Shown here: positions 14,587 through 55,620 of the stretch, piece after piece | Layout of the letters: each line of letters starts with the position of its first letter | How positions within the stretch are numbered: the first letter of the stretch is position 1 | Assembly (NCBI RefSeq): GCF_030463565.1 | Contig: NC_134644.1 | Coordinates: 103,412,765-103,476,764, forward strand | Direction of reading: 5' to 3' | DNA length: 64,000 nucleotides | Source of the DNA: Pelecanus crispus | Taxonomy: Eukaryota; Chordata; Aves; Pelecaniformes; Pelecanidae | Made by a program: the position numbers and the translations under genes | Notes under the pieces: generated by a model | Database searches by the model: none | Told to the model about the DNA's origin: nothing | The model's input: the letters and a program-made list of their open reading frames with translations, nothing else

Positions 14587-14892
14587 CTACGGCTTCCGCT
14601 GCTTGTGCCGGGGGTTGGTCTTGCAGCAGACGTAGAGCCGGCCCCGCCGCCGGACGATGAAGCAGTCCTTGCAGCGCCTCTTCAGCGACGTCTTCGTCTT
14701 CAGCCCCGCAAGGAGCGGCGGCAGCAGCCCGGCCGGCGGCGGGACGGCCAGCAGGCCGCGGGGGGCGGCCGCCCCGCAGCGCAGCGGCAGGGCCCGGCTC
14801 ACCGGGGCCCACCACGGGGCTAGCGACGAGAAGGGCGAGCGGCCCAGCGAGCGCAGCGGCCCGGTGGCGGCCCTGGCCAGGAGGGACAGCAT
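14587..14892 (-). CDS. MRPL36: mitochondrial ribosomal protein L36 (bL36m)
   Basis: A 101-residue protein of the large subunit of the mitochondrial ribosome, about the length of mammalian MRPL36. Residues 1-60 form a variable, Arg/Leu/Pro-rich leader consistent with a mitochondrial targeting peptide. Residues 64-101 are the bL36 domain with the zinc-ribbon ligands C74, C77, C90 and H96 in the family spacing (C-x2-C-x12-C-x5-H), ending in the conserved PRHKQR motif. I chose the ATG at 14892 because it has A at -3 and gives the family length. The open frame continues upstream to 15030, but only through a GTG codon and across a probable 5'-UTR intron whose acceptor (ccccgcag) ends at 14903. The coding region is a single exon. 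It sits head-to-head with NDUFS6, about 300 bp apart, as in other vertebrates. Confidence 0.93.
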
Positions 14893-15187
14893 GCTCCGCG
14901 CCCTGCGGGGACAGCGCACCGGTAAGGACACCCGCCCCGCTCCCCCCCCACGCCCCCCCCAATCCCACTCCTCCTCGCCTTCCCCCCCGCCTCCACACCA
15001 CTGCCCGCCCCAGCCCCTAAGGGAAGGCACCGGGCACTGACCGCTGCTGCCGCCGCCGCCGTCCGCTCACCCCCGCCTCAGGCGGCCCCGCGCAGGCGCG
15101 CGCGCCGCGGCCCGGCGGAAGGGCGCGTGGGCCGGCGAGGGGCGGGGCGAGGGCGGCGCCCAGCGGGGCTCACGGGGGCGGCTCAAG

Positions 15188-22393
<7,206 letters not shown>

Positions 22394-25078: not shown

Positions 25079-25644
25079 TGTCCTGGTTTTGGCTGGGATA
25101 GAGTTAATTTTCTTCCTAGTAGCAGGCATAGTGCTGTGTTTTGGATTTAGTAGGAGAATAATGCAGATAACACACTGATGGTTTAGTTGTTGCCAAGTAC
25201 TGCTTATGCTAGTCAAGGACTTTTCAGCTTCCCATGCTCTGCCAGGTACACAAGAAACTGGGAGGGGGCACAGCCAGAAGAGTTGATCCAAACTGACCAA
25301 AGGGCTATTCCATACCATATGATGTCATGCTCAGTATAGAAACTGGGGGGAGTTGGCTGGGGGGCAGCGATCGCTGCTCGGGAACTGTCTGGGTATCGGT
25401 CGTCAGGTGGTGAGCAATTGCATTGTGCATCACTTGGTTTGTGTATTATTATTACTATTATTAATATGTTGTTATTATTACCACTACTCTTTTACTTTAT
25501 TTCAATTATTAAACCGTTCTTATTTCAAGCCAGGAGTGTTTCTCACTCTTACTCCTCCGATTCTCTCCCCCATCCCATCGGGGTAGGGGGAGTGAGTGAG
25601 TGGCTGCGTGGTGCTTAGTTACTTGCTGGGGTTAAACCACAACA
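25079..25644 (+). mobile_element. solo LTR, ERVL-like family (copy 1)
   Basis: Begins TGTCCTGGTTTTGGCTGGG and ends AAACCACAACA. It is homologous over its full length to the LTRs at 31850 and 38927. Flanks are taagc on the left and aaagc on the right, an imperfect 5-bp target-site duplication with one difference. The TATA position is mutated (cagtatagaaactg), and an ATTAAA signal follows a run of ATT repeats. No internal retroviral sequence adjoins it. Confidence 0.88.
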
Positions 25645-31849: not shown

Positions 31850-32413
31850 TGTCCTGGTTTCGGCTGGGATAGAGTTAATTTTCTTCCTAGTAGCAGGCAC
31901 AGTGCTGTGTTTTGGATTTAGTAGGAGAAGAATGTTGATAACACGCTGATGTTTTTAGTTGTTGCTAAGTACTGCTTGTGCTAGTCAAGGACTTTTCAGC
32001 TTCCCATGCTCTGCCAGGCACACAAGAAGCTGGGAGGGGGCACAGCCAGAATAGTTGATCCAAACTGACCAAAGGGCTATTCCATACCATATGATGTCAT
32101 GCTCAGTATAGAAACTGGGGGGGGGTTGGCCGGGGAGCAGCGATCGCTGCTCGGGAACTGTCTGGGTATCGGTCAGCGGGTGGTGAGCAATTGCATTGTG
32201 CATCACTTGCTTTCTATATCATTATTTTTATTATTATTATATCGTTATTATTTTACTTTATTTTCTTTCAATTATTAAACTGTTCTTATCTCAACCCAGG
32301 AGTGTTTCTCACTCTTACTCCTCCGATTCTCTCCCCCATCCCATCGGGGTAGGGGGAGTGAGCGAGCAGCTGCGTGGTGCTTAGTTGCTGACTGGGGCTA
32401 AACCGCGACGACA
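31850..32413 (+). mobile_element. solo LTR, ERVL-like family (copy 2)
   Basis: 564-bp LTR with TG...CA termini, flanked by a perfect 5-bp target-site duplication, CCTAT (31845-31849 and 32414-32418). A 5-bp duplication is characteristic of class III (ERVL-type) integration. It carries the near-palindrome gagcagcgatcgctgctc. The TATA position is mutated to tatagaaa. There is no internal sequence, so it is a recombined solo LTR. Confidence 0.93.
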
Positions 32414-32839
32414 CCTATGGAGCTTAGCTTCTTATCAGTGTCCTAAAAAAACATGTAATAGCTACTGATGGTTTGCCGAGGATTGAAAGGTTGAAGCATT
32501 GTAAGTAAGGAAGAGGATTCAGTGGTGATACCGTTTGCTGCCGCTTACCCAGCCAAAGCTGGCACAAAGTTGAATGTGTTTCAGTGCAATGAACTGTACA
32601 GGAAAAACAAAATGCTGTCCATATTTATTGAAAAGAAAGTATTTCTGTGAAGTTATAACTGTAACAGCCTGAGCTGCTATTTACCCTGTGTGAGTAGCAG
32701 CCTTAATGACTTCAGGTAACAGGAAATGTGGACTATTACATTTGACTGGGAGAATGTGTTGATCATCAGATCGCTATGAGTTTCCAGTTCAATTCTGTGT
32801 CTTAACTTTTATGAACTTTGGAGGAATAGAGATGTATTG

Positions 32840-37518: not shown

Positions 37519-38926
37519 GAGCTCCATAAGCAAATTAATGCTAAATGAAGTGGGAACCTATGTCCACAGTCAAGTGAAACTGTGGGAATACATGTTGTGT
37601 AGAAATATTTTAGTCTGAAGCTTTTATGGGTTTTGGTGTTGATAGACTAGTTAAGGTTCTGTACATCAACCTCGGAAGAAATAACCTGTTCTATGAATAA
37701 TATTTGTGGAGATGGGGGAAAAAAAAAAAGAACATGCATTGTAGGAAATGCCTGTTTTATTTCATTTTACTCCCTATTGTCCATAGATTATTCTGCTCGC
37801 CAGACTAGGTCTGGTTTGGTGGACGGTCCAGGGATCATCTAATGTAAGACAAACAATGTAAAGAAGCGTGAACTGGGATCCTAAACCATTTCACATCTAG
37901 TGGAGTGTCATAGTCTCTTAAGCTAGCATCTGCTTTCCTCCTGCATGGTTTCTTTCTGAGTGCATGAATTTCTGCTGAGTTGGTTGGATGATGGCAAAAT
38001 GTTAGCAGAAGGATGGATATGGCTGCTTTCTTACAGGAAGAGTACTTTGTTGTATAGGGTGTGCTTAGTAACACAAGGGCTGACAGTGCAGGCTTTCAAG
38101 TCATGAGGACAGGCATCAGAGCTTTGGTCCCTTGGCAAATATTCTAACAACTTTACTATTATTCCAGTTAGTCTAATGACAACTGAGGTAGTAACACAAG
38201 CGGTGTTTTTTGGACTCTGAAACCAGACATGCACATCCCTTTTTTTTTAAATCCCCCCTCCCCTTTTTTTCTGTCTGTAGCTCTAACAATTTAGCTCACT
38301 GGTTGTTGTCAGGCCAAGTTTACAAGTTGATATGTTCATCTTTTGCATCTTTTGCTATATAGGAAATATTAGCACTATGATTTCTGGTCTTGAAGCTGGG
38401 CATGTGATTTCTGTGTGCTGTAATTCTTTAATTGCCATGTTTCTCTGTATCCTGGCCTAGTTTTCCAGATAAGGTGTTATGTTAAAAAAGTATAGAATAA
38501 TCTTCCTTTCCTCCTTTCCTTTATGACTACTTGATATCATTTAAAAGGCGGAGCTGGAATGTATGCAACAAAACCAAACTGGTCTGTATAAGAGTATAAG
38601 CTTAGATTATTTTTTTTTTTATCCCTACTTTTTACTTTCTGTACTGTCTTCACTGAGTCATATTCATTGCAAGAGGCTTTCACTATATCGATATTTGTAA
38701 AAATATTTTACAAATGTCCATATATATGGATAGCATTCCATGTTGGTAAATCTTAACTTAGTTACAAAGCAAGCATGATGCAGTAGTTTCTTCATTATGA
38801 AAGGTAGGGGGAAACAGCCTTATGTCATTCAAATGTATGTGTGTATTAGGCAGTTGGAAAAAGTTGGGGGGGATGGGACCAAACCCACAATGGCTTAATA
38901 CTTTTTTTTTTTGGTGGCTTGCCAGG
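37519..38926. other. intergenic, nothing recognised
   Basis: AT-rich DNA with homopolymer runs (about 37720, 38240 and 38610). No gene or repeat boundary supported. Confidence 0.5.
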
Positions 38927-39486
38927 TGTCCTGGTTTCGGCTGGGATAGAGTTAATTTTCTTCCTAGTAGCAGGCACAGTGCTGTGTTTTGGATTTAATA
39001 GGAGAAGAATGTTGATAACACGCTGATGTTTTTAGTTGTTGCTGAGTACTGCTTATGCTAGTCAAGGACTTTTCAGCTTCCCATGCTCTGCGAGGTACAC
39101 AAGAAACTGGGAGGGGGCACAGCCAGGACTGCTGACCCAAACTGACCCAAGGACTATTCCATGCCATATGACGTCATGCTCAGTATATAAACTGGGGGGG
39201 GTTGGCCCGGGAGCAGCGATTGCTGCTCGGGAACTGTCTGGGTATCGGTCGGTGGGTGGTGAGCAATTGCAGTGTGCATCACTTGCTTTCTATATCATTA
39301 TTTTTATTATTATTATATCGTTATTATTTTACTTTATTTTCTTTCAATTATTAAACTGTTCTTATCTCAACCCAGGAGTGTTTCTCACTCTTACTCCTCC
39401 GATTCTCTCCCCCATCCCATCGGGGTAGGGGGAGTGAGCGAGCAGCTGCGTGGTGCTTAGTTGCTGGCTGGGGCTAAACCACGACA
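38927..39486 (+). mobile_element. solo LTR, ERVL-like family (copy 3)
   Basis: 560-bp LTR, TGTCCTGGTTTCGGC to AACCACGACA, with a perfect 5-bp target-site duplication CCAGG (38922-38926 and 39487-39491). Unlike copies 1 and 2 it keeps an intact TATATAAA box (about 39184-39191). Internal sequence is absent. Confidence 0.93.
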
Positions 39487-40892
39487 CCAGGGGAGCCAAG
39501 GAAAGTCACATTGTCAGCTCATCACTCTGAACCCCATGGTACTATCTGAAGTGCTTCATGTATCATTCATTACAGCAGGTAGAGGAACAGTGAAATGTGG
39601 TTCACTTTAGCAGTAAACTCCTTTAGGACTGTTTGGTTAAGTGACTTAATGGCTTATTCTTAATGTTCTTTTCTTTTATCTTGAGACCTCATAACTCAAA
39701 ATGACCAAAAATAATTCAAATTCTTCTTGGCAGCAGGTCACCTGTGAAATATTTTCTGTCCAACTTTATTACTTTTGAATACAAAGTGCCAAGAAAAATC
39801 TGTGTGTGTGCATGTCTGGGTGTATGAAAGACTATACAGATTTATACACCTTCTGTGTATATCTATGGCTCCTACATATCTTCTGTATACTTCTGTGGCT
39901 TTTTACAATGGCAACAAAGAAAAAGTATTTTAAGTCATATAATCTGTACCTCATTACAATCTGCTCTATCTTAAAAGCACTTAAGTTTTGACATAAAGCA
40001 CTAAGTGACATAAAAGCAGAAACAAAGGAGAATTAGAGGCAGTGGGACTTCCTGGGATAGGGAAGGTAGTAGTGAAGAAACAGATGAGAGCTCCTGAGTA
40101 TTTGGGGAAAAGAGGGGAATCCAGAGGCAACAAACTTTGGTCTAAATTTTTGTCTAATTTTTTTTCCTAATACAGAAAATATCTTTGCATGTTACATGGA
40201 GGAATTTTTTAAAAACATTGAATGCCAGGTACAAATAGAAAAGATTGGAAACTCTATTTGAAAATAAAATGCCTCAGAACAGCCTAGAAGGATAATTGTA
40301 TTCATTCTCCATACATCTTTTAAATTACATTATCAGAAAAGATAAATGAACAATCAAAATGAAAATTTTATGTAAATAGAATTTGCCCAGAAAAAATCCT
40401 TGCTTAGGTAAATTGCAGTTATGTGCAGATACAGAAAAAGTGGCAAGTTCAAGGGTAGTGGTGTCCTGGGCTGTGGCCAAAGAAATCAGAGTTAATAGTC
40501 CCTCTCTGTAAGACTGGTATAACTATATGTAGACCAAAACAGATTGAATATAAGTCTGACAAAACAAAGTGAATCCAGGCAGAACATAGCAAATATCTGT
40601 TAGGTAACTCTTTTCTAGCTTTTGGGTTTTAATTAGCCAAGCAAAATAAAACCTATTTATTAGCATTTTGTGGTCTACCTATTAAGAGCAGTGAATGGGA
40701 GGGGTGTACCAGGCAGCTGCTAGAGGCAGAGCAGGAGGTACTGCTTTCTCAAATCTGACCCAGAGCCTGACCCTAAGACTGCTGTTCTCCTTTTGTACGG
40801 CTCTCCCTTAAGACACAAACCATCCTCAAACAACACAAAAGGAAGCATCTTACTTACATTTTAAAAAAGCACCAAAACAAAAATGTAGTCGA
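39487..40892. other. intergenic up to the tandem array
   Basis: AT-rich DNA without recognisable features; the composition changes abruptly at about 40893, where the macrosatellite starts. Confidence 0.5.
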
Positions 40893-41849
40893 TAAGAGGA
40901 AGTCAAGTTAGTTAAGCAGGCCTTTCCCCTCGTGAAGCCGTGCTGGCGCTGAGCAGTGCCTGCGTTGTCTCTCACGTGGTTTTCGATAGCTCCCAGAATG
41001 ACCTTCTCCATGGTTTTGCCTGGCACTGAAGTGAGACCGACAGGCGTGTAGTTACCAGGGTCTTCCTTCTTACCCTTCTTGAAAGTTGGGAGCGCGTTTG
41101 CCAGCTTCCAGTCCACCGGGACCTCTCCGGACTCGCAAGGCCGTTGAAAACCAATGGAGAGAGGTCCCGCGAGAAGAGCGGCCAGCTCTTTCAGGACCCT
41201 GGGCCGAATGCCATGGGGCCCCATAGACTTAGGTGCATCCAGCTGGAGCAGCGAGCGTCAGAAAGGTCAGAGTCGGCTGGGAGTTCATCATCCATCTGCC
41301 CAGCGACAGTCTTCCGACACAGGGCTCCGGGCTCCCGGGGCCCATCATCACTGTTAAAGCCAGAGGCAAAGGCAGCGTTACCCGTCTCTGCTCTCTCTAC
41401 GCCCCGACTGGTGAGGTGACCGACCTCAGCAAGCAATGGACCAGTGTTCTCTCTCATGCTCGCGTCGCTGGTAACACATTTGAAAAAGCCCTTTCTGTCG
41501 TCCTTCACGGTACTGGGCAGCTTGAACTCTAATGGAGCCTTGGCTGCACGACTTTTCTCCCTGCCGTGGCGAACTGCGTCCGTGTAGTCCTGCCGTGTCG
41601 CCTGTCCTTGCTTCCAATGTCCGTAGGCTTTCCTTTTGGGCCTAAGTTCTAGGAGAAGATCCCTGCGCAGCCAGGCCGGCCTTCTGCCCCGCTTGCTTGA
41701 CTTCCCGCACCAAATTTGGAATTGCCTGCTCCTGCGCTCTTAAGAGACGGCCCTTCAAAAGTGACCAGCATTCATGGACGCCAGCGCCTGCAAAAGCAGA
41801 TTCCCAGGGGACGAACTCACAAACTAGTTCCTGCAGCAGCCAGGCCACA
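40893..41849 (-). mobile_element. CR1 ORF2 fragment in unit 1 (cut by the array edge)
   Basis: The minus strand encodes ECWSLLKGRLLRAQEQAIPN (end of the endonuclease-to-RT linker), KDDRKGFFKCVTSDASMREN, GPHGIRPRVLKELAALLAGP, FKKGKKEDPGNYTPVGLTSV and RQHGFTRGKACLTNLTSSY, in CR1 order, with stops and frameshifts between them. The array boundary cuts it just after LTNLTSSY. It has neither 5' nor 3' CR1 ends. Confidence 0.88.
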
Positions 41850-42236
41850 GCCTGCTCTTGCCGTGTCCAGGGTCCAGGTTTTGCTGGCAGTTTTCCCCCT
41901 GTCGCCAGCGACTTGAAACTCTGCTCAACAACTGAAGCCTACCGTTGAGGTCTCGTAAGAGTTTAACGTCTTTGGAAACAAGAAATTCGTAGGCTTCAAT
42001 GGCTTTTCTGGTGATAGTTGTGCTCCATTTAAAAATCTATTGTCCAATTGGTGATGTTACAGCCCAAAAAAACCCAGAACGTAAGGCGCCGCCAGAGCAC
42101 AGAGGTGGGCATGGGCAGGGAAAGTTTCCAGAGCGAGCCTCCTGCTCCAAGGCAGGGAGCAGGAGGGGCCGCAGGAGTGCAGGTGGCAAAGTGCCAAACA
42201 GGAGAGGACGAAAGCATTTTTATTCTTTTGTTGTTG

Positions 42237-42242
42237 TTTATT
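42237..42242 (-). terminator. AATAAA overlapping the stop codon, unit 1
   Basis: The TAA stop (42240-42238) lies inside AATAAA. A second AATAAA is at 42219-42224, 18 bases downstream. The same pair is found in all four units. Confidence 0.55.
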
Positions 42243-43185
42243 GCCCGCTCCTGAAGGTGCGGGGGCTGAGCCGCGGGTAGGGGTGCGGCCGGGCGCTCCT
42301 GCGACGCCGTTGGTGCCGTCTCACACAAAGGAGCCCGGGTGGCTGGGGTGCCGGCAGGTGATGATCCCTGTGGCAGGTGGACCCAGTGCCATCGACGATT
42401 CTTCTCGATGGTGGATCCACCTCCATGGGCTCCACGTCGTCCTGCGGCGGGCTGTGCCTCACGCACAGGAGCCCGGCTGGCTGGGGTGCCGGCAGGTGAT
42501 GATCCCTGTGGCAGGTGGACCCAGTGCCATCGACGATTCTTCTCGACGGTGGATCCACCTCCATGGGCTCCACGTCGTCCTGCGGCGGGCTGTCACGGCT
42601 GCGCCTCGCAGCGTGCCTCAGCAGGTAGACACGCCAGGGCCCTGTGCTGTTGCCCTGTGTGCCCACAGCTGCGCGCTGGACGGCGTCGTTGGCGTGAGCG
42701 TGGGCCATTGCTCTCAGGGCGCGAGGGGTGATGTAGCTCCTCCTCCTCCTCGTCCTCCGCTGATTGCCCATCCTCAGGCTCCTGGGAGGAGCCTTCCTCC
42801 TGGGCGGTCGCGGGAAGCGTGCCTGTGCCGTCCCACGCGAAGGTGGGCAGGCAGCCGCCTCGCTGCTCTGGGCGCTCCCTGGCAGGCAGGCACGCCTGGG
42901 CTCCACGGCGTTCCCTGGTGGGCCTAGAGCCAGGCTCTGCAGGGCGCCGATCAGAGGAGCGAGGTCGATGGCGCTCACGGCACGGGGGGTGATGTTGTTG
43001 TTGTTGTTGTTGTTCCTCCTCCTCCTCCTCCTCCTCCCTCCCCTGCGCTGCCTCTGCTTCCTCCTCCTGCGAGGTGCCTTCGTCCTCCACGGTGGCGGGG
43101 AGCAGCTCGGTGGCGTCCCGCGCCAAGGTGGGCAGTCGTCCGCCTTGCCGCTCCAGCTCCTCTTCCTTCCAAGCATGCTTGGCAT
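42238..43185 (-). CDS. putative intronless array gene, copy 1 (315 aa, function unknown)
   Basis: Not recognised as a known family. From ATG (a second in-frame ATG with A at -3 follows at codon 4) the predicted protein is Arg/Pro-rich. In order: residues about 1-60 are basic and end in an Arg run and an Asn run; about 64-105 is a segment starting ITPRAVSAIDLAPLIGALQS; about 106-150 is basic; about 150-190 is a diverged copy starting ITPRALRAMAHAHANDAVQ; about 195-287 are two near-identical 46-residue repeats with DDVEPMEVDPPSRR; the C-terminus is Arg-rich. Promoter and poly(A) signals bracket it. Doubt remains: GC-rich DNA rarely has stops, and other frames are open too, including an acidic frame from about 43126 to 42593 with no ATG. 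This copy differs from the others by one extra codon in a GAG run and several substitutions. Confidence 0.4.
   Translation of the reverse strand: MPSMLGRKRSWSGKADDCPPWRGTPPSCSPPPWRTKAPRRRRKQRQRRGGRRRRRRRNNNNNNNITPRAVSAIDLAPLIGALQSLALGPPGNAVEPRRACLPGSAQSSEAAACPPSRGTAQARFPRPPRRKAPPRSLRMGNQRRTRRRRSYITPRALRAMAHAHANDAVQRAAVGTQGNSTGPWRVYLLRHAARRSRDSPPQDDVEPMEVDPPSRRIVDGTGSTCHRDHHLPAPQPAGLLCVRHSPPQDDVEPMEVDPPSRRIVDGTGSTCHRDHHLPAPQPPGLLCVRRHQRRRRSARPHPYPRLSPRTFRSGQ
42331..42597 (-). repeat. 138-bp tandem duplication in the 3' part of the reading frame, unit 1
   Basis: Two near-identical 138-bp (46-codon) repeats begin at 42331 and 42469 on the plus strand. Each encodes SPPQDDVEPMEVDPPSRRIV and DGTGSTCHRDHHLPAPQP on the minus strand. 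Equivalent pairs occur in units 2-4 (about 45633-45899, 48932-49198 and 52231-52497). Confidence 0.9.
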
Positions 43186-43236
43186 GCGAGGGCCCGGAAG
43201 CTGGGCGAAGTGTGGGCCAGCTGCAGGGGCGCCTGC

Positions 43237-43305
43237 TTTTATAGGCCCCGGGCAGTGAGGTAGCTAGTGACGTGAGGAGGCCGTTGTTACGTCATTGTGA
43301 CGTCG
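43237..43305 (-). promoter_or_regulatory. CRE-TATA promoter of array gene, unit 1
   Basis: The minus strand has TATAAAA at 43243-43237, 52 bases before the ATG. Three CRE/ATF-like sites (core ACGTCA or ACGTGA) lie at 43268-43305, some 25-60 bases upstream of the TATA box. Spacing fits a focused RNA polymerase II promoter with a short leader. Confidence 0.6.
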
Positions 43306-43890
43306 TTTGTGCCTGCCGCTGATGCACGCGTGCGGCCAAAGCTGGGCGGGTTTGGGCGTGGGGGGCCTGTGGCCTGAAAGCTGCCGAAATGTGGGAGAAG
43401 GAGGAGGGCCGTGGGGGCTGAGGGCCCCTTTCGTGGGGCTTGCTCCCGCCTGCCCTGTTGCTTGCTCGTGAGAAAGGCTGCCCCTGGGGCAGAGGGACCG
43501 CCCTCCAGCTCCTCCAGCTCCTCCTGAGCCCTGGGCTCCAGCCCCCTCCTCATCCTGTGCCCGGGGTCCCCTCGACGAGACGGTGGCAAGCGTGTTGCAG
43601 GGGGGTCGGGGCTCCTCAGTGACCCCCCACCGACCCGGCGCCCTGCAAGGTGCACAGTCCTCCGCGCTCGACAGTGGCTGAGAGGGGGCAAAGCACCCAG
43701 ACATGCCGCCGGCGGGAGAGGGACGCCCAGCCGGCCTGCGCAAGGCCTGCCAGCACGCCATAAAGGAGTCGTCGATTGCCAAGCGTGGCGTGAGGCCTTC
43801 TTTCCTGCGGCCCGGCCCTGGCCCTGGAGCGTGGAGAGGTGCCACCTCTTGTGCACGGAGCCCCGAGGGAGAGGGGAGGGGAGGGCCTGT

Positions 43891-45151
43891 CCCTTCGGCT
43901 CCTGCCTCCAGACCATTTATAAAAGCATGAAAGAGCACTGGCCCTAGAAATGAGCCCCGGGGAACTCCACTGGTGACTGGCCGCCAGGCTGATGTAACCC
44001 CCTTTACCCTAAGCCCTGTGAGCCCCACCCGCCAGCCAATTGTTCAGCTAACGTGCTATGGACTTGTCTAGCTGTAGGCTGGACATTTTGTCCAGAAGGA
44101 CGCTGTGGGAGACAGTAGCAACAGCTTTGCTAAACTCCAAAGAAATGCCGCGTCTGCTGGCTTCCCTTGGTCAAGTAGGTGGGTGACCTTGCCGTAAGAG
44201 GAAGTCAAGTTAGTTAAGCAGGCCTTTCCCCTCGTGAAGCCGTGCTGGCGCTGAGCAGTGCCTGCGTTGTCTCTCACGTGGTTTTCGATAGCTCCCAGAA
44301 TGACCTTCTCCATGGTTTTGCCTGGCACTGAAGTGAGACCGACAGGCGTGTAGTTACCAGGGTCTTCCTTCTTACCCTTCTTGAAAGTTGGGAGCGCGTT
44401 TGCCAGCTTCCAGTCCACCGGGACCTCTCCGGACTCGCAAGGCCGTTGAAAACCAATGGAGAGAGGTCCCGCGAGAAGAGCGGCCAGCTCTTTCAGGACC
44501 CTGGGCCGAATGCCATGGGGCCCCATAGACTTAGGTGCATCCAGCTGGAGCAGCGAGCGTCAGAAAGGTCAGAGTCGGCTGGGAGTTCATCATCCATCTG
44601 CCCAGCGACAGTCTTCCGACACAGGGCTCCGGGCTCCCGGGGCCCATCATCACTGTTAAAGCCAGAGGCAAAGGCAGCGTTACCCGTCTCTGCTCTCTCT
44701 ACGCCCCGACTGGTGAGGTGACCGACCTCAGCAAGCAATGGACCAGTGTTCTCTCTCATGCTCGCGTCGCTGGTAACACATTTGAAAAAGCCCTTTCTGT
44801 CGTCCTTCACGGTACTGGGCAGCTTGAACTCTAATGGAGCCTTGGCTGCACGACTTTTCTCCCTGCCGTGGCGAACTGCGTCCGTGTAGTCCTGCCGTGT
44901 CGCCTGTCCTTGCTTCCAATGTCCGTAGGCTTTCCTTTTGGGCCTAAGTTCTAGGAGAAGATCCCTGCGCAGCCAGGCCGGCCTTCTGCCCCGCTTGCTT
45001 GACTTCCCGCACCAAATTTGGAATTGCCTGCTCCTGCGCTCTTAAGAGACGGCCCTTCAAAAGTGACCAGCATTCATGGACGCCAGCGCCTGCAAAAGCA
45101 GATTCCCAGGGGACGAACTCACAAACTAGTTCCTGCAGCAGCCAGGCCAAA
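43891..45151 (-). mobile_element. CR1 ORF2 internal fragment spanning the unit 1/2 junction
   Basis: Same CR1 fragment as at 40893 but complete within the array. After ACLTNLTSSYGKVTHLLDQG it continues through a LDKMSSLQLDKSIAR / [10 protein letters not shown] block and [20 protein letters not shown] to [10 protein letters not shown], then leaves CR1 homology. There is no CR1 3' end. Frameshifted and inactive. Confidence 0.88.
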
Positions 45152-45538
45152 GCCTGCTCTTGCCGTGTCCAGGGTCCAGGTTTTGCTGGCAGTTTTCCCC
45201 CTGTCGCCAGCGACTTGAAACTCTGCTCAACAACTGAAGCCTACCGTTGAGGTCTCGTAAGAGTTTAACGTCTTTGGAAACAAGAAATTCGTAGGCTTCA
45301 ATGGCTTTTCTGGTGATAGTTGTGCTCCATTTAAAAATCTGTTGTCCAATTGGTGATGTTACAGCCCAAAAAAACCCAGAACGTAAGGCGCCGCCAGAGC
45401 ACAGAGGTGGGCATGGGCAGGGAAAGTTTCCAGAGCGAGCCTCCTGCTCCAAGGCAGGGAGCAGGAGGGGCCGCAGGAGTGCAGGTGGCAAAGTGCCAAA
45501 CAGGAGAGGACGAAAGCATTTTTATTCTTTTGTTGTTG

Positions 45539-45544
45539 TTTATT
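45539..45544 (-). terminator. AATAAA overlapping the stop codon, unit 2
   Basis: Same arrangement as unit 1; a second AATAAA lies at 45521-45526. Confidence 0.55.
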
Positions 45545-46484
45545 GCCCGCTCCTGAAGGTGCGGGGGCTGAGCCGCGGGTAGGGGTGCGGCCGGGCGCTC
45601 CTGCGACGCCGTTGGTGCCGTCTCACACAAAGGAGCCCGGGTGGCTGGGGTGCCGGCAGGTGATGATCCCTGTGGCAGGTGGACCCAGTGCCATCGACGA
45701 TTCTTCTCGACGGTGGATCCACCTCCATGGGCTCCACGTCGTCCTGCGGCGGGCTGTGCCTCACGCACAGGAGCCCGGCTGGCTGGGGTGCCGGCAGGTG
45801 ATGATCCCTGTGGCAGGTGGACCCAGTGCCATCGACGATTCTTCTCGACGGTGGATCCACCTCCATGGGCTCCACGTCGTCCTGCGGCGGGCTGTCACGG
45901 CTGCGCCTCGCAGCGTGCCTCAGCAGGTAGACACGCCAGGGCCCTGTGCTGTTGCCCTGTGTGCCCACAGCTGCGCGCTGGACGGCGTCGTTGGCGTGAG
46001 CGTGGGCCATTGCTCTCAGGGCGCGAGGGGTGATGTAGCTGCTCCTCCTCCTCGTCCTCCGCTGATTGCCCATCCTCAGGCTCCTGGGAGGAGCCTTCCT
46101 CCTGGGCGGTCGCGGGAAGCGTGCCTGTGCCGTCCCACGCGAAGGTGGGCAGGCAGCCGCCTCGCTGCTCTGGGCGCTCCCTGGCAGGCAGGCACGCCTG
46201 GGCTCCACGGCGTTCCCTGGTGGGCCTAGAGCCAGGCTCTGCAGGGCGCCGATCAGAGGAGCGAGGTCGATGGCGCTCACGGCACGGGGGGTGATGTTGT
46301 TGTTGTTGTTGTTGTTCCTCCTCCTCCTCCTCCTCCCTCCCCTGCGCTGCCTCTGCTTCCTCCTCCTGGGAGGTGCCTTCGTCCTCCACGGTGGCGGGGA
46401 GCAGCTCGGTGGCGTCCCGCGCCAAGGTGGGCAGTCGTCCGCCTTGCCGCTCCAGCTCCTCTTCCTTCCAAGCATGCTTGGCAT
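45540..46484 (-). CDS. putative intronless array gene, copy 2 (314 aa, function unknown)
   Basis: Same architecture as copy 1, open throughout, one codon shorter in the Arg run (GAG-run frame) and with KAPPRRRKQ for KAPRRRRKQ and RRRSSYITPRA for RRRRSYITPRA. Essentially identical to copy 3. Function cannot be assigned. Confidence 0.4.
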   Translation of the reverse strand: MPSMLGRKRSWSGKADDCPPWRGTPPSCSPPPWRTKAPPRRRKQRQRRGGRRRRRRNNNNNNNITPRAVSAIDLAPLIGALQSLALGPPGNAVEPRRACLPGSAQSSEAAACPPSRGTAQARFPRPPRRKAPPRSLRMGNQRRTRRRSSYITPRALRAMAHAHANDAVQRAAVGTQGNSTGPWRVYLLRHAARRSRDSPPQDDVEPMEVDPPSRRIVDGTGSTCHRDHHLPAPQPAGLLCVRHSPPQDDVEPMEVDPPSRRIVDGTGSTCHRDHHLPAPQPPGLLCVRRHQRRRRSARPHPYPRLSPRTFRSGQ

Positions 46485-46535
46485 GCGAGGGCCCGGAAGC
46501 TGGGCGAAGTGTGGGCCAGCTGCAGGGGCGCCTGC

Positions 46536-46604
46536 TTTTATAGGCCCCGGGCAGTGAGGTAGCTAGTGACGTGAGGAGGCCGTTGTTACGTCATTGTGAC
46601 GTCG
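46536..46604 (-). promoter_or_regulatory. CRE-TATA promoter of array gene, unit 2
   Basis: TATAAAA on the minus strand at 46542-46536. CRE-like sites at 46567-46574 (TGACGTGA on plus), 46586-46593 (TTACGTCA on plus) and 46597-46604 (TGACGTCG on plus). Confidence 0.6.
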
Positions 46605-47189
46605 TTTGTGCCTGCCGCTGATGCACGCGTGCGGCCAAAGCTGGGCGGGTTTGGGCGTGGGGGGCCTGTGGCCTGAAAGCTGCCGAAATGTGGGAGAAGG
46701 AGGAGGGCCGTGGGGGCTGAGGGCCCCTTTCGTGGGGCTTGCTCCCGCCTGCCCTGTTGCTTGCTCGTGAGAAAGGCTGCCCCTGGGGCAGAGGGACCGC
46801 CCTCCAGCTCCTCCAGCTCCTCCTGAGCCCTGGGCTCCAGCCCCCTCCTCATCCTGTGCCCGGGGTCCCCTCGACGAGACGGTGGCAAGCGTGTTGCAGG
46901 GGGGTCGGGGCTCCTCAGTGACCCCCCACCGACCCGGCGCCCTGCAAGGTGCACAGTCCTCCGCGCTCGACAGTGGCTGAGAGGGGGCAAAGCACCCAGA
47001 CATGCCGCCGGCGGGAGAGGGACGCCCAGCCGGCCTGCGCAAGGCCTGCCAGCACGCCATAAAGGAGTCGTCGATTGCCAAGCGTGGCGTGAGGCCTTCT
47101 TTCCTGCGGCCCGGCCCTGGCCCTGGAGCGTGGAGAGGTGCCACCTCTTGTGCACGGAGCCCCGAGGGAGAGGGGAGGGGAGGGCCTGT

Positions 47190-48450
47190 CCCTTCGGCTC
47201 CTGCCTCCAGACCATTTATAAAAGCATGAAAGAGCACTGGCCCTAGAAATGAGCCCCGGGGAACTCCACTGGTGACTGGCCGCCAGGCTGATGTAACCCC
47301 CTTTACCCTAAGCCCTGTGAGCCCCACCCGCCAGCCAATTGTTCAGCTAACGTGCTATGGACTTGTCTAGCTGTAGGCTGGACATTTTGTCCAGAAGGAC
47401 GCTGTGGGAGACAGTAGCAACAGCTTTGCTAAACTCCAAAGAAATGCCGCGTCTGCTGGCTTCCCTTGGTCAAGTAGGTGGGTGACCTTGCCGTAAGAGG
47501 AAGTCAAGTTAGTTAAGCAGGCCTTTCCCCTCGTGAAGCCGTGCTGGCGCTGAGCAGTGCCTGCGTTGTCTCTCACGTGGTTTTCGATAGCTCCCAGAAT
47601 GACCTTCTCCATGGTTTTGCCTGGCACTGAAGTGAGACCGACAGGCGTGTAGTTACCAGGGTCTTCCTTCTTACCCTTCTTGAAAGTTGGGAGCGCGTTT
47701 GCCAGCTTCCAGTCCACCGGGACCTCTCCGGACTCGCAAGGCCGTTGAAAACCAATGGAGAGAGGTCCCGCGAGAAGAGCGGCCAGCTCTTTCAGGACCC
47801 TGGGCCGAATGCCATGGGGCCCCATAGACTTAGGTGCATCCAGCTGGAGCAGCGAGCGTCAGAAAGGTCAGAGTCGGCTGGGAGTTCATCATCCATCTGC
47901 CCAGCGACAGTCTTCCGACACAGGGCTCCGGGCTCCCGGGGCCCATCATCACTGTTAAAGCCAGAGGCAAAGGCAGCGTTACCCGTCTCTGCTCTCTCTA
48001 CGCCCCGACTGGTGAGGTGACCGACCTCAGCAAGCAATGGACCAGTGTTCTCTCTCATGCTCGCGTCGCTGGTAACACATTTGAAAAAGCCCTTTCTGTC
48101 GTCCTTCACGGTACTGGGCAGCTTGAACTCTAATGGAGCCTTGGCTGCACGACTTTTCTCCCTGCCGTGGCGAACTGCGTCCGTGTAGTCCTGCCGTGTC
48201 GCCTGTCCTTGCTTCCAATGTCCGTAGGCTTTCCTTTTGGGCCTAAGTTCTAGGAGAAGATCCCTGCGCAGCCAGGCCGGCCTTCTGCCCCGCTTGCTTG
48301 ACTTCCCGCACCAAATTTGGAATTGCCTGCTCCTGCGCTCTTAAGAGACGGCCCTTCAAAAGTGACCAGCATTCATGGACGCCAGCGCCTGCAAAAGCAG
48401 ATTCCCAGGGGACGAACTCACAAACTAGTTCCTGCAGCAGCCAGGCCAAA
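47190..48450 (-). mobile_element. CR1 ORF2 internal fragment spanning the unit 2/3 junction
   Basis: Identical in extent to the 43891-45151 copy. Identical breakpoints in each unit show that CR1 was part of the unit before amplification and did not insert separately. Confidence 0.88.
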
Positions 48451-48837
48451 GCCTGCTCTTGCCGTGTCCAGGGTCCAGGTTTTGCTGGCAGTTTTCCCCC
48501 TGTCGCCAGCGACTTGAAACTCTGCTCAACAACTGAAGCCTACCGTTGAGGTCTCGTAAGAGTTTAACGTCTTTGGAAACAAGAAATTCGTAGGCTTCAA
48601 TGGCTTTTCTGGTGATAGTTGTGCTCCATTTAAAAATCTGTTGTCCAATTGGTGATGTTACAGCCCAAAAAAACCCAGAACGTAAGGCGCCGCCAGAGCA
48701 CAGAGGTGGGCATGGGCAGGGAAAGTTTCCAGAGCGAGCCTCCTGCTCCAAGGCAGGGAGCAGGAGGGGCCGCAGGAGTGCAGGTGGCAAAGTGCCAAAC
48801 AGGAGAGGACGAAAGCATTTTTATTCTTTTGTTGTTG

Positions 48838-48843
48838 TTTATT
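48838..48843 (-). terminator. AATAAA overlapping the stop codon, unit 3
   Basis: Same arrangement as units 1 and 2. Confidence 0.55.
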
Positions 48844-49783
48844 GCCCGCTCCTGAAGGTGCGGGGGCTGAGCCGCGGGTAGGGGTGCGGCCGGGCGCTCC
48901 TGCGACGCCGTTGGTGCCGTCTCACACAAAGGAGCCCGGGTGGCTGGGGTGCCGGCAGGTGATGATCCCTGTGGCAGGTGGACCCAGTGCCATCGACGAT
49001 TCTTCTCGACGGTGGATCCACCTCCATGGGCTCCACGTCGTCCTGCGGCGGGCTGTGCCTCACGCACAGGAGCCCGGCTGGCTGGGGTGCCGGCAGGTGA
49101 TGATCCCTGTGGCAGGTGGACCCAGTGCCATCGACGATTCTTCTCGACGGTGGATCCACCTCCATGGGCTCCACGTCGTCCTGCGGCGGGCTGTCACGGC
49201 TGCGCCTCGCAGCGTGCCTCAGCAGGTAGACACGCCAGGGCCCTGTGCTGTTGCCCTGTGTGCCCACAGCTGCGCGCTGGACGGCGTCGTTGGCGTGAGC
49301 GTGGGCCATTGCTCTCAGGGCGCGAGGGGTGATGTAGCTGCTCCTCCTCCTCGTCCTCCGCTGATTGCCCATCCTCAGGCTCCTGGGAGGAGCCTTCCTC
49401 CTGGGCGGTCGCGGGAAGCGTGCCTGTGCCGTCCCACGCGAAGGTGGGCAGGCAGCCGCCTCGCTGCTCTGGGCGCTCCCTGGCAGGCAGGCACGCCTGG
49501 GCTCCACGGCGTTCCCTGGTGGGCCTAGAGCCAGGCTCTGCAGGGCGCCGATCAGAGGAGCGAGGTCGATGGCGCTCACGGCACGGGGGGTGATGTTGTT
49601 GTTGTTGTTGTTGTTCCTCCTCCTCCTCCTCCTCCCTCCCCTGCGCTGCCTCTGCTTCCTCCTCCTGGGAGGTGCCTTCGTCCTCCACGGTGGCGGGGAG
49701 CAGCTCGGTGGCGTCCCGCGCCAAGGTGGGCAGTCGTCCGCCTTGCCGCTCCAGCTCCTCTTCCTTCCAAGCATGCTTGGCAT
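48839..49783 (-). CDS. putative intronless array gene, copy 3 (314 aa, function unknown)
   Basis: Open throughout and, by reading, the same protein as copy 2. Same promoter, duplicated ITPRA segments, 46-residue repeats and stop/poly(A) overlap. Confidence 0.4.
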   Translation of the reverse strand: MPSMLGRKRSWSGKADDCPPWRGTPPSCSPPPWRTKAPPRRRKQRQRRGGRRRRRRNNNNNNNITPRAVSAIDLAPLIGALQSLALGPPGNAVEPRRACLPGSAQSSEAAACPPSRGTAQARFPRPPRRKAPPRSLRMGNQRRTRRRSSYITPRALRAMAHAHANDAVQRAAVGTQGNSTGPWRVYLLRHAARRSRDSPPQDDVEPMEVDPPSRRIVDGTGSTCHRDHHLPAPQPAGLLCVRHSPPQDDVEPMEVDPPSRRIVDGTGSTCHRDHHLPAPQPPGLLCVRRHQRRRRSARPHPYPRLSPRTFRSGQ

Positions 49784-49834
49784 GCGAGGGCCCGGAAGCT
49801 GGGCGAAGTGTGGGCCAGCTGCAGGGGCGCCTGC

Positions 49835-49903
49835 TTTTATAGGCCCCGGGCAGTGAGGTAGCTAGTGACGTGAGGAGGCCGTTGTTACGTCATTGTGACG
49901 TCG
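49835..49903 (-). promoter_or_regulatory. CRE-TATA promoter of array gene, unit 3
   Basis: TATAAAA at 49841-49835 (minus) with the three CRE-like sites at 49866-49903, unchanged from unit 2. Confidence 0.6.
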
Positions 49904-50488
49904 TTTGTGCCTGCCGCTGATGCACGCGTGCGGCCAAAGCTGGGCGGGTTTGGGCGTGGGGGGCCTGTGGCCTGAAAGCTGCCGAAATGTGGGAGAAGGA
50001 GGAGGGCCGTGGGGGCTGAGGGCCCCTTTCGTGGGGCTTGCTCCCGCCTGCCCTGTTGCTTGCTCGTGAGAAAGGCTGCCCCTGGGGCAGAGGGACCGCC
50101 CTCCAGCTCCTCCAGCTCCTCCTGAGCCCTGGGCTCCAGCCCCCTCCTCATCCTGTGCCCGGGGTCCCCTCGACGAGACGGTGGCAAGCGTGTTGCAGGG
50201 GGGTCGGGGCTCCTCAGTGACCCCCCACCGACCCGGCGCCCTGCAAGGTGCACAGTCCTCCGCGCTCGACAGTGGCTGAGAGGGGGCAAAGCACCCAGAC
50301 ATGCCGCCGGCGGGAGAGGGACGCCCAGCCGGCCTGCGCAAGGCCTGCCAGCACGCCATAAAGGAGTCGTCGATTGCCAAGCGTGGCGTGAGGCCTTCTT
50401 TCCTGCGGCCCGGCCCTGGCCCTGGAGCGTGGAGAGGTGCCACCTCTTGTGCACGGAGCCCCGAGGGAGAGGGGAGGGGAGGGCCTGT

Positions 50489-51749
50489 CCCTTCGGCTCC
50501 TGCCTCCAGACCATTTATAAAAGCATGAAAGAGCACTGGCCCTAGAAATGAGCCCCGGGGAACTCCACTGGTGACTGGCCGCCAGGCTGATGTAACCCCC
50601 TTTACCCTAAGCCCTGTGAGCCCCACCCGCCAGCCAATTGTTCAGCTAACGTGCTATGGACTTGTCTAGCTGTAGGCTGGACATTTTGTCCAGAAGGACG
50701 CTGTGGGAGACAGTAGCAACAGCTTTGCTAAACTCCAAAGAAATGCCGCGTCTGCTGGCTTCCCTTGGTCAAGTAGGTGGGTGACCTTGCCGTAAGAGGA
50801 AGTCAAGTTAGTTAAGCAGGCCTTTCCCCTCGTGAAGCCGTGCTGGCGCTGAGCAGTGCCTGCGTTGTCTCTCACGTGGTTTTCGATAGCTCCCAGAATG
50901 ACCTTCTCCATGGTTTTGCCTGGCACTGAAGTGAGACCGACAGGCGTGTAGTTACCAGGGTCTTCCTTCTTACCCTTCTTGAAAGTTGGGAGCGCGTTTG
51001 CCAGCTTCCAGTCCACCGGGACCTCTCCGGACTCGCAAGGCCGTTGAAAACCAATGGAGAGAGGTCCCGCGAGAAGAGCGGCCAGCTCTTTCAGGACCCT
51101 GGGCCGAATGCCATGGGGCCCCATAGACTTAGGTGCATCCAGCTGGAGCAGCGAGCGTCAGAAAGGTCAGAGTCGGCTGGGAGTTCATCATCCATCTGCC
51201 CAGCGACAGTCTTCCGACACAGGGCTCCGGGCTCCCGGGGCCCATCATCACTGTTAAAGCCAGAGGCAAAGGCAGCGTTACCCGTCTCTGCTCTCTCTAC
51301 GCCCCGACTGGTGAGGTGACCGACCTCAGCAAGCAATGGACCAGTGTTCTCTCTCATGCTCGCGTCGCTGGTAACACATTTGAAAAAGCCCTTTCTGTCG
51401 TCCTTCACGGTACTGGGCAGCTTGAACTCTAATGGAGCCTTGGCTGCACGACTTTTCTCCCTGCCGTGGCGAACTGCGTCCGTGTAGTCCTGCCGTGTCG
51501 CCTGTCCTTGCTTCCAATGTCCGTAGGCTTTCCTTTTGGGCCTAAGTTCTAGGAGAAGATCCCTGCGCAGCCAGGCCGGCCTTCTGCCCCGCTTGCTTGA
51601 CTTCCCGCACCAAATTTGGAATTGCCTGCTCCTGCGCTCTTAAGAGACGGCCCTTCAAAAGTGACCAGCATTCATGGACGCCAGCGCCTGCAAAAGCAGA
51701 TTCCCAGGGGACGAACTCACAAACTAGTTCCTGCAGCAGCCAGGCCAAA
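50489..51749 (-). mobile_element. CR1 ORF2 internal fragment spanning the unit 3/4 junction
   Basis: Fourth occurrence of the same CR1 fragment, with the same ends and disruptions as the others. Confidence 0.88.
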
Positions 51750-52136
51750 GCCTGCTCTTGCCGTGTCCAGGGTCCAGGTTTTGCTGGCAGTTTTCCCCCT
51801 GTCGCCAGCGACTTGAAACTCTGCTCAACAACTGAAGCCTACCGTTGAGGTCTCGTAAGAGTTTAACGTCTTTGGAAACAAGAAATTCGTAGGCTTCAAT
51901 GGCTTTTCTGGTGATAGTTGTGCTCCATTTAAAAATCTATTGTCCAATTGGTGATGTTACAGCCCAAAAAAACCCAGAACGTAAGGCGCCGCCAGAGCAC
52001 AGAGGTGGGCATGGGCAGGGAAAGTTTCCAGAGCGAGCCTCCTGCTCCAAGGCAGGGAGCAGGAGGGGCCGCAGGAGTGCAGGTGGCAAAGTGCCAAACA
52101 GGAGAGGACGAAAGCATTTTTATTCTTTTGTTGTTG

Positions 52137-52142
52137 TTTATT
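52137..52142 (-). terminator. AATAAA overlapping the stop codon, unit 4
   Basis: Same arrangement as in the other units. Confidence 0.55.
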
Positions 52143-53082
52143 GCCCGCTCCTGAAGGTGCGGGGGCTGAGCCGCGGGTAGGGGTGCGGCCGGGCGCTCCT
52201 GCGACGCCGTTGGTGCCGTCTCACACAAAGGAGCCCGGGTGGCTGGGGTGCCGGCAGGTGATGATCCCTGTGGCAGGTGGACCCAGTGCCATCGACGATT
52301 CTTCTCGACGGTGGATCCACCTCCATGGGCTCCACGTCGTCCTGCGGCGGGCTGTGCCTCACGCACAGGAGCCCGGCTGGCTGGGGTGCCGGCAGGTGAT
52401 GATCCCTGTGGCAGGTGGACCCAGTGCCATCGACGATTCTTCTCGACGGTGGATCCACCTCCATGGGCTCCACGTCGTCCTGCGGCGGGCTGTCACGGCT
52501 GCGCCTCGCAGCGTGCCTCAGCAGGTAGACACGCCAGGGCCCTGTGCTGTTGCCCTGTGTGCCCACAGCTGCGCGCTGGACGGCGTCGTTGGCGTGAGCG
52601 TGGGCCATTGCTCTCAGGGCGCGAGGGGTGATGTAGCTGCTCCTCCTCCTCGTCCTCCGCTGATTGCCCATCCTCAGGCTCCTGGGAGGAGCCTTCCTCC
52701 TGGGCGGTCGCGGGAAGCGTGCCTGTGCCGTCCCACGCGAAGGTGGGCAGGCAGCCGCCTCGCTGCTCTGGGCGCTCCCTGGCAGGCAGGCACGCCTGGG
52801 CTCCACGGCGTTCCCTGGTGGGCCTAGAGCCAGGCTCTGCAGGGCGCCGATCAGAGGAGCGAGGTCGATGGCGCTCACGGCACGGGGGGTGATGTTGTTG
52901 TTGTTGTTGTTGTTGTTCCTCCTCCTCCTCCTCCCTCCCCTGCGCTGCCTCTGCTTCCTCCTCCTGGGAGGTGCCTTCGTCCTCCACGGTGGCGGGGAGC
53001 AGCTCGGTGGCGTCCCGCGCCAAGGTGGGCAGTCGTCCGCCTTGCCGCTCCAGCTCCTCTTCCTTCCAAGCATGCTTGGCAT
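52138..53082 (-). CDS. putative intronless array gene, copy 4 (314 aa, function unknown)
   Basis: Open throughout. It keeps 314 codons although the trinucleotide runs differ: one codon fewer in the GAG run and one more in the adjoining CAA run than copies 2 and 3 (read as one Arg fewer and one Asn more in this frame). It is the first unit in the transcriptional direction, and its promoter is intact although the array ends about 270 bp upstream of the gene. Confidence 0.4.
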   Translation of the reverse strand: MPSMLGRKRSWSGKADDCPPWRGTPPSCSPPPWRTKAPPRRRKQRQRRGGRRRRRNNNNNNNNITPRAVSAIDLAPLIGALQSLALGPPGNAVEPRRACLPGSAQSSEAAACPPSRGTAQARFPRPPRRKAPPRSLRMGNQRRTRRRSSYITPRALRAMAHAHANDAVQRAAVGTQGNSTGPWRVYLLRHAARRSRDSPPQDDVEPMEVDPPSRRIVDGTGSTCHRDHHLPAPQPAGLLCVRHSPPQDDVEPMEVDPPSRRIVDGTGSTCHRDHHLPAPQPPGLLCVRRHQRRRRSARPHPYPRLSPRTFRSGQ

Positions 53083-53133
53083 GCGAGGGCCCGGAAGCTG
53101 GGCGAAGTGTGGGCCAGCTGCAGGGGCGCCTGC

Positions 53134-53202
53134 TTTTATAGGCCCCGGGCAGTGAGGTAGCTAGTGACGTGAGGAGGCCGTTGTTACGTCATTGTGACGT
53201 CG
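53134..53202 (-). promoter_or_regulatory. CRE-TATA promoter of array gene, unit 4
   Basis: TATAAAA at 53140-53134 (minus) and CRE-like sites at 53165-53202. Array homology ends at about 53352, so upstream context beyond about 150 bp is unique DNA and not spacer/CR1. Confidence 0.6.
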
Positions 53203-53352
53203 TTTGTGCCTGCCGCTGATGCACGCGTGCGGCCAAAGCTGGGCGGGTTTGGGCGTGGGGGGCCTGTGGCCTGAAAGCTGCCGAAATGTGGGAGAAGGAG
53301 GAGGGCCATGGGGGCTGAGGGCCCCTTTCGTGGGGCTCGCTCCCGCCTGCCC

Positions 53353-54228: not shown

Positions 54229-55620
54229 ATAGAATCATAGAATCATTTAGGTTGGAAAAGGCCTTTAAGATCATCCAGTCCAACCATTAATCTAACACTA
54301 CCAAGTCCACCACTAAACCAATTAAGGGTAGAGTAGCAATTTCATGTTTTCTGGCTTGGTGGCTGGATTATTTCCTAATGAAAGTAAAACTAGGAATCGT
54401 TAAGGTTGGAAAGCATCTCTAAGATCATCAATCCAACCATCAACCCAATACCACCATGCCCACTAAACCATGTCCCCAAGTGCCACATCTACCCATTTTT
54501 TGAACACTTCCAGGGATGGTGACTCCACCACCTCTCTGGGCAGCCTGTTCCAATGCTTGACTATCCTTTCCGTGAAGAAATTTTTTCCTAATATGCAATC
54601 TAAACCTCCCCTGACACAGCTTGAGGCCATTTCCTCTCGTCCTGTCGCTAACTACGTGGGAGAAGAGACCAACACCCACCTCACTACAACCTCCTTTCAG
54701 GCAGTTGTAGAGAGCGATAAGGTCTCCCCTCAGCCTCCTCTCCTCCAGGCTAAACAACCCCAGTTCCCTCAGCCGCTCCTTATAAGACTTGTGCTCCAGA
54801 CACTTCACCAGCTTCATTGCCCTTCTCTGAACACGCTCCAGCACCTCAATGTCCTTCTTGTACTGAGGGGCCCAAAACTGGACACAGTATTCCAGGTGCA
54901 GCCTCACCAGTGCCGAGTACAAGGGGATGATCACTTCCCTGCTCCTGCTGGCCACACTATTCCTGATACAAGCCAGGATGCCATTGGCCGCCTTGGCCAC
55001 CTGGGCACACTGCTGGCCCACGTTCAGCCAGCTGACGACCAACACCCCCAGGTCCTTTTCAGCCAGGCAGCTTTCCAGCCACTCTTCCCCAAGCCTGTAG
55101 CATTGCATGGGGTTGTTGTGACCCAAGTGCAGGACCCTACACTTGGCATTGTTGAACCTCATCCAGTTGGCCTCGGCCCATCGGTCCAGCCTGTCCAGGT
55201 CCCTCTGCAGGGCCATCCTACCCTCGAGCAGACTGACACTCCCACACAGTTTAGTGTCATCTGCAAATTTACTGAAGGCACTCAATCCCTTCATCCAGAT
55301 TGTTGATAAAGTTATTAAACAGAACTGGCCCCAAAACTGAGCCCTGGGTAACACCGCTTGTGACTGGTTGCCAGCTGGATTTAACTCCATTCACCACAGC
55401 TCTCTGGGCTTGCCACCCAGCCAGTTTTTTACCAAGCGAAGAGTACGCCCATCCAAGCCATGAGGCACCAGCTTCCTTAGGAGAATGCTGTGGGAGATGG
55501 TGTCAAATGTTTTACTGAAATCCAGGTAGATGACGTCCATAGCCTTTCCTTCATCCACCAAGCGGGCCACCAGGACATAGAAGGAGATCAGGTTGGTCAA
55601 GCAGGACCTGTCTTTCATGA
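54229..55620 (-). mobile_element. CR1 LINE, 5'-truncated 1.4-kb copy with double 3' end
   Basis: The longest CR1 here. The minus-strand frames at 55391-55618 and 54440-55390 encode the reverse transcriptase from RSCLTNLISFY and [20 protein letters not shown] through a [10 protein letters not shown] segment, with the FADD catalytic motif, to [20 protein letters not shown] and [20 protein letters not shown]. The two are separated by a stop/frameshift. The 3' end is at the left, with two 3' modules around the spacer shared with the copies at 8.1 and 27.3 kb. It lacks the endonuclease and 5' end, so it is not autonomous. Confidence 0.93.

Follow-up and report, generated by a model that had tools for sequence, protein, structure and literature searches.

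When every unit of a tandem array carries the same intact reading frame, does the array hold living genes or a relic? The question is raised by a GC-rich array in Pelecanus crispus, at positions 40893 to 53352 of the 64,000-nucleotide stretch analyzed here (the window: contig NC_134644.1 of assembly GCF_030463565.1, positions 103,412,765 to 103,476,764 of the forward strand), on a 176-Mb contig of a genome of 1.314 Gb in 310 contigs. The answer toward which we lean, with moderate confidence, is that the array is a small, recently homogenized tandem amplification of a dead fragment of a CR1-like long interspersed nuclear element (LINE) together with a gene-like module that is old and intronless and bears a promoter. 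The feature, a short macrosatellite-like array containing a gene-like relic, is real but modest, and the frame itself is most likely a relic, at best encoding a weakly constrained product.

Self-matches of 20-mers across the window are dominated by offsets of 3299 and 3302, the array edges are sharp at 40893 and 53352, and GC makes up 61.8% of the array, compared with 39.4% on its left and 41.6% on its right in the measured flanks. Any two units differ at 0–8 positions over 2560–3299 columns, and among all four there are substitutions in nine columns and a single 3-base indel. Units B and C do not differ at any of their 3299 columns, and an outer unit (A or D) is involved in every one of the nine. 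The preliminary description of this DNA, which spoke of about 3.8 nearly identical head-to-tail units with these periods in AT-rich surroundings, was thus accurate. The ends of the array appear less homogenized than its middle, the pattern expected from unequal exchange or conversion, and because the units are nearly identical their four intact frames count as one observation. As in a macrosatellite, the units are kilobase-sized, nearly identical, and arranged head to tail; of the many, variable copies that the term also implies, this one assembly holds 3.8. No further unit lies within 10 kb past each window end, where a single weak 57-base match was the only one found, and a search of open-licence papers (titles and starts of abstracts) did not find a description of the repeat.

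Read along the minus strand, each unit runs from the CR1-like fragment through about 600 GC-rich bases and three sites resembling the cAMP response element (CRE) to TATAAAAG, then to the frame, whose ATG lies 58 bases from TATAAAAG, and finally to two AATAAA polyadenylation signals, the first overlapping the stop codon and the second 18 bases beyond it. All of these signals are present in 4/4 units, so the earlier claim that a TATA/CRE promoter-like stretch and AATAAA bracket each of four minus-strand frames of 314–315 codons stands. The CR1-like fragment (∼1.3 kb, frames broken) is assigned from its matches to other CR1-like copies, its match to RVT_1 (E 6.6e-4) being below the cut-off; "CR1" and the names of the catalytic motifs are our presumed labels. 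An intact endonuclease and reverse transcriptase were not found in the LINE part of the array, which ends before the catalytic motif. Within the frame lie two 138-bp tandem copies and a diverged internal duplication of ∼290 bases (197 of 273 aligned bases identical).

40893..53352, minus strand: tandem array, 3.8 head-to-tail units of 3299–3302 bp, 12,460 bases
42238..43185, minus strand: 315-codon frame of unit A, ATG to TAA
45540..46484, minus strand: 314-codon frame of unit B, ATG to TAA
48839..49783, minus strand: 314-codon frame of unit C (unit identical to B), ATG to TAA
52138..53082, minus strand: 314-codon frame of unit D, ATG to TAA
43236..43304, minus strand: promoter-like stretch of unit A, with three CRE-like sites at 43267–43304 and TATAAAAG at 43236–43243
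46535..46603, minus strand: promoter-like stretch of unit B
49834..49902, minus strand: promoter-like stretch of unit C
53133..53201, minus strand: promoter-like stretch of unit D
45518..45545, minus strand: two AATAAA signals of unit B, the first overlapping the stop codon
42216–42243, 48817–48844, and 52116–52143, minus strand: equivalent AATAAA pairs of the other units
45622..45895, minus strand: two 138-bp tandem copies inside the frame of unit B
42320–42593, 48921–49194, and 52220–52493, minus strand: equivalent 138-bp pairs of the other units
43907..45223, minus strand: CR1-like fragment (reverse-transcriptase region) between modules A and B, approximate, with limits from matches to the C6 relic described below and to other CR1-like copies
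47206..48522, minus strand: CR1-like fragment of the next unit, approximate
50505..51821, minus strand: CR1-like fragment of the following unit, approximate, placed from the period
40893..41921, minus strand: truncated CR1-like fragment at the left array edge, approximate

Two CR1-like copies at 8051–9139 and 54236–55315 are 91% identical and 46 kb apart, with a CpG content far below that of the array's CR1-like part. CTCF-type sites were considered and set aside: there is one site with two mismatches per unit, and the window total of 10 (7.2 expected) is reached by 16/100 shuffles.

For sequence this poor in T, a frame of such length is no more than moderately unusual. Shuffles of the open reading frame alone reach that length in 0/2000 cases from an ATG and 28/2000 from stop to stop, shuffles of the 2,051-nt module in 48/2000 and 106/2000, and shuffles of the whole unit in 20/2000 and 94/2000; removing one 138-bp copy gives 108/4000, and taking out the first duplicate block too gives 826/4000. 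The unit holds other long frames, of 176 amino acids on the same strand and 228 on the opposite one. The 314-amino-acid product of frame 0 is predicted to be rich in arginine and proline and basic (isoelectric point 11.8, charge +40). As the preliminary description had noted, no homeodomain or other known domain is recognized in it: a Pfam scan returned nothing at the curated cut-off and a single sub-threshold family, Sigma70_ECF. A single-sequence AlphaFold model, weak evidence because it comes from one sequence, is disordered (mean predicted local distance difference test score 46.7, no residue ≥70). A histone-like reading of the ITPRA... peptide, based on a likeness by eye, was rejected when no histone appeared up to E 10 among solved structures or E 1 in Pfam.

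The history of the frame can be read in part from its relatives. A protein search of the window's own genome, in which 36 candidates were scored and match counts are lower bounds, gave at least eight matches: four from the array itself, three that are pieces of a single C6 locus (38.69 Mb), and one from C2 (99.44 Mb), about 4 Mb from the array. No relative was confirmed in two scans of viral contigs and one of prokaryote genome contigs. The C6 relic is 5'-truncated and lacks the promoter because its start falls inside the frame, which is broken by a 1-base deletion and holds one 138-bp copy; it runs on past the polyadenylation signals, and a 34-nt stretch with both AATAAA is unchanged relative to the array. 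It shares both the module and the CR1-like part with the array at about 80–86% identity, and the composite is therefore older than the array. On C6, about 1 kb including endonuclease-like frames precedes the CR1-like part and is missing from the array, suggesting that the unit in the array arose by deletion, with part of that kilobase possibly being an insertion in C6 instead. On C2, the alignment (about 68%) covers the sequence ahead of the promoter, the promoter itself, and the frame through its first two thirds. TATAAAA and the ATG survive in this relic, the CRE-like sites that contain CpG are absent, and frame 0 is interrupted by a single stop over 154 codons, where 6.4 are expected (P 0.008, or 0.023 as the best of three frames). 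With these three features retained, the frame that starts at the ATG behind the TATA box is probably ancestral. The same relic (L010 4700–5015) shows overlapping open frames behind its TATA box, frame 0 of 100 codons and frame 2 of 102 codons with a TTG start. A CR1-like copy beside it was rejected as a partner in the composite, being different-looking sequence (about 65–68% matches) whose adjacency may be coincidence.

The GC-rich, open character of the array may stem largely from mutation in its repeats and copying between them. Where array and C6 relic differ between strong and weak bases, the array carries G/C at 89 and A/T at 6 of 95 positions in the module and G/C at 93 and A/T at 12 of 105 in the CR1-like part, counts that are unpolarized and include AT-ward decay in C6; without transitions in CpG context they become 49 versus 3 (of 52) and 56 versus 10 (of 66). 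Because the bias is as strong in the dead LINE part as in the frame, it is not codon selection. Polarized with the C2 relic as reference, the 30 changes on the array branch comprise 20 AT-to-GC and 3 GC-to-AT, against 4 and 10 among the 15 on the C6 branch; 11 of the 20 are transitions in CpG context, a pattern that would also arise if CpG sites had decayed in parallel in both relics, and the remaining 9 versus 3 is suggestive only, being too few to decide. The ratio of observed to expected CpG is 0.65 in the array, higher than in the flanks (0.27 and 0.15) or in two further CR1-like copies (0.35 and 0.24). Among the 30 array-branch changes, two ancestral stops were removed in frame 1, two in frame 2, and none in frame 0, indicating that frame 0 was already open. 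GC-biased gene conversion with CpG retention in the array is our preferred account of the GC bias.

On this account, the module would formerly have borne an open frame from an ATG behind a TATA box, as the C2 relic suggests; unequal exchange and gene conversion would hold the units near-identical, to judge from their identity and from differences lying nearly all in the outer units; and GC-biased conversion and CpG retention would enrich the unit in GC and deplete it of T along its full length, in the dead LINE as well. Such a composition favors open frames on both strands. The promoter-like stretch may still be driving transcripts.

If the product mattered, synonymous changes should be in excess. 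We placed changes of the same mutation type at random and compared synonymous counts per frame; across six comparisons and two subsets of one of them, no frame shows a significant excess under this matched null, the smallest P values being 0.068 and 0.099 for frame 2, followed by 0.11 and 0.12 for frame 0. For frame 0, 25 of 83 changes between array and C6 are synonymous (24.6 expected), as are 13 of 30 on the array branch (9.55 expected, P 0.11) and 3 of 32 in the first 46 codons compared with the C2 relic, fewer than the 7.76 expected. For frame 2, the array branch has 6/30 (7.8 expected), and two pre-run comparisons gave P of about 0.10 and 0.34. The ratio of nonsynonymous to synonymous substitution rates (dN/dS) in frame 0 is 1.27 (0.78–2.32) between the internal duplicate blocks, 0.89 (0.55–1.46) between array and C6, 1.40 for block 1 against the C2 relic, and 2.34 (0.84–20) for the first 46 codons against that relic; in frame 2 it is 0.62 (0.35–1.07) between blocks. 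Simple dN/dS values below 1 point to conflicting frames, and early readings that favored frame 2 and then frame 0 were set aside after the matched null. Codon usage scored with a hand-entered human table favors frame 2 over the first 46 codons (0/500 shuffles) and also in the matching part of the second block; elsewhere in the frame the shuffles show nothing significant. Present-day coding is possible, without support from these selection tests.

Several observations weigh against a relic opened by biased conversion, among them the limits on the GC counts given above and the near-open frame 0 of the C2 relic. A TATAAA with at least three CRE half-sites in the 90 bases upstream is found in 0/1000 shuffled units, and third-codon-position GC peaks in the frame only (chi-square P 2e-4 with runs and one repeat copy left out; 0.003–0.005 in single blocks). 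Some dN/dS values lie below 1, namely 0.35 (0.12–0.71) in the later part of frame 0 when compared with the relic on C2, 0.37 (0.17–0.82) between that relic's two blocks, and 0.35 (0.16–0.83) for the early part of frame 2 against the same relic. Finally, no target-site duplication was seen at the array edges, a point to be set beside amplification in place.

Most of these points would also fit a living, fast-evolving tandem protein gene whose basic product is made from the CRE/TATA promoter, possibly in male germ cells by analogy with CREM-driven spermatid genes. Four intact frames behind a promoter-like stretch, the third-position GC peak, the ATG and TATA of C2, the unchanged polyadenylation stretch of C6, the two low frame-0 ratios, and the strongly basic product can all be read this way, but the matched null gives frame 0 no significant synonymous excess, its first 46 codons have fewer synonymous changes than expected against the C2 relic, and the ratios between blocks and against C6 are near or above 1. 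Moreover, Pfam, solved structures, and the AlphaFold model yielded neither domain nor fold, and the C2 relic is without the CpG-containing CRE-like sites, leaving a living gene a tentative possibility on the unlikely side. The preliminary description had proposed an undescribed multicopy protein family; the multiple copies hold up, with at least four in the array, two relics, and a probably ancestral frame from the ATG seen on C2, whereas a functional family finds no support in the matched null, the disordered model, or the broken C6 frame. A bolder combination, that this is an undescribed, fast-evolving intronless bird germline gene in a small array whose frame is kept open by GC-biased conversion and not by selection, strikes us as rather unlikely.

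If the array were a noncoding tandem transcription unit of the oocyte, it would be the RNA of the repeat that counts rather than any protein. The model for this is LL2R, described in two reports as a chicken tandem repeat, located on the long arm of chromosome 2, that is transcribed in oocytes and forms lumpy loops, rich in splicing factors, on the lampbrush chromosome (PMC7151628, PMC3648425). The predicted transcript (45517–46512) folds better than 20/20 shuffles (z −5.09), but the hairpin in each 138-bp copy is largely responsible and, being repeated, inflates the score; a Rfam scan gave no structured-RNA match at the gathering score. The two arrays are both bird tandem repeats, possibly on the same chromosome, though the placement of ours on chromosome 2 is conjectural; we regard an LL2R-type role as improbable. 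Least probable of all, and by our estimate very much so, is another coding frame, past or present: frame 2, which is acidic, in the opening part of each block, with a product that would overlap or be shifted. Codon usage and the frame 2 ratios against C2 and between blocks speak for it, but the matched null does not, the array branch has fewer synonymous changes than expected, and the frame has a TTG in place of an ATG at its head and stops inside the array frame. The reading we prefer thus remains an amplified LINE-module composite with a relic frame.

Human D4Z4, a 3.3-kb GC-rich macrosatellite with the intronless DUX4 frame in each unit, is the comparison made in the preliminary description. 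It is apt for the layout, since the pelican unit is also 3.3 kb, GC-rich, and furnished with an intronless frame in every copy; it fails for the product, which lacks the homeodomain or any other Pfam domain at the curated cut-off, and for the copy number, the array having only 3.8 units, a CR1-like composite structure, and no known function. Bird protamine-type genes are likewise intronless, with a CRE/TATA promoter and an arginine-rich product, and the array module resembles them in its compact promoter and basic frame-0 product; at 314 codons and proline-rich, however, its frame is not a protamine, and no homology is shown. The chicken Z-macrosatellite, described in PMC7397634 as a large avian tandem repeat in terminal clusters with oocyte transcription, may be similar in kind, whereas the array is internal on its contig and has few units.

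Elsewhere in the window, upstream of the array, lie two frames that we take to be MRPL36 and NDUFS6, arranged head to head as is usual for them; the pair is read as sharing a CpG island. Together with the CR1-like repeats, these neighbors fit a bird genome.

14590–15066, minus strand: frame matching Ribosomal_L36 (Pfam, E 4.1e-17)
15041–20493, plus strand: frame matching zf-CHCC (Pfam, E 8.9e-10)
15338–15488: 17-bp GC-rich minisatellite, 8.9 copies, 99% match, adjoining the presumed NDUFS6 first exon
25076–25644, 31850–32423, and 38924–39496: three copies, 89–95% alike, of a 0.57-kb repeat at ∼7-kb spacing left of the array

The array carries a caution, in that intact frames in a tandem array look gene-like, yet homogenization makes them one observation and GC-biased change opens frames. 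With a dead LINE as internal control and two relics dated by divergence, biased conversion becomes separable from selection within one genome. Translation of the frame, if shown, would make it a new germline gene carried by a repeat, and a germline gene kept open by conversion, if that is what the array holds, would show in a living case how macrosatellite genes like DUX4 could begin.

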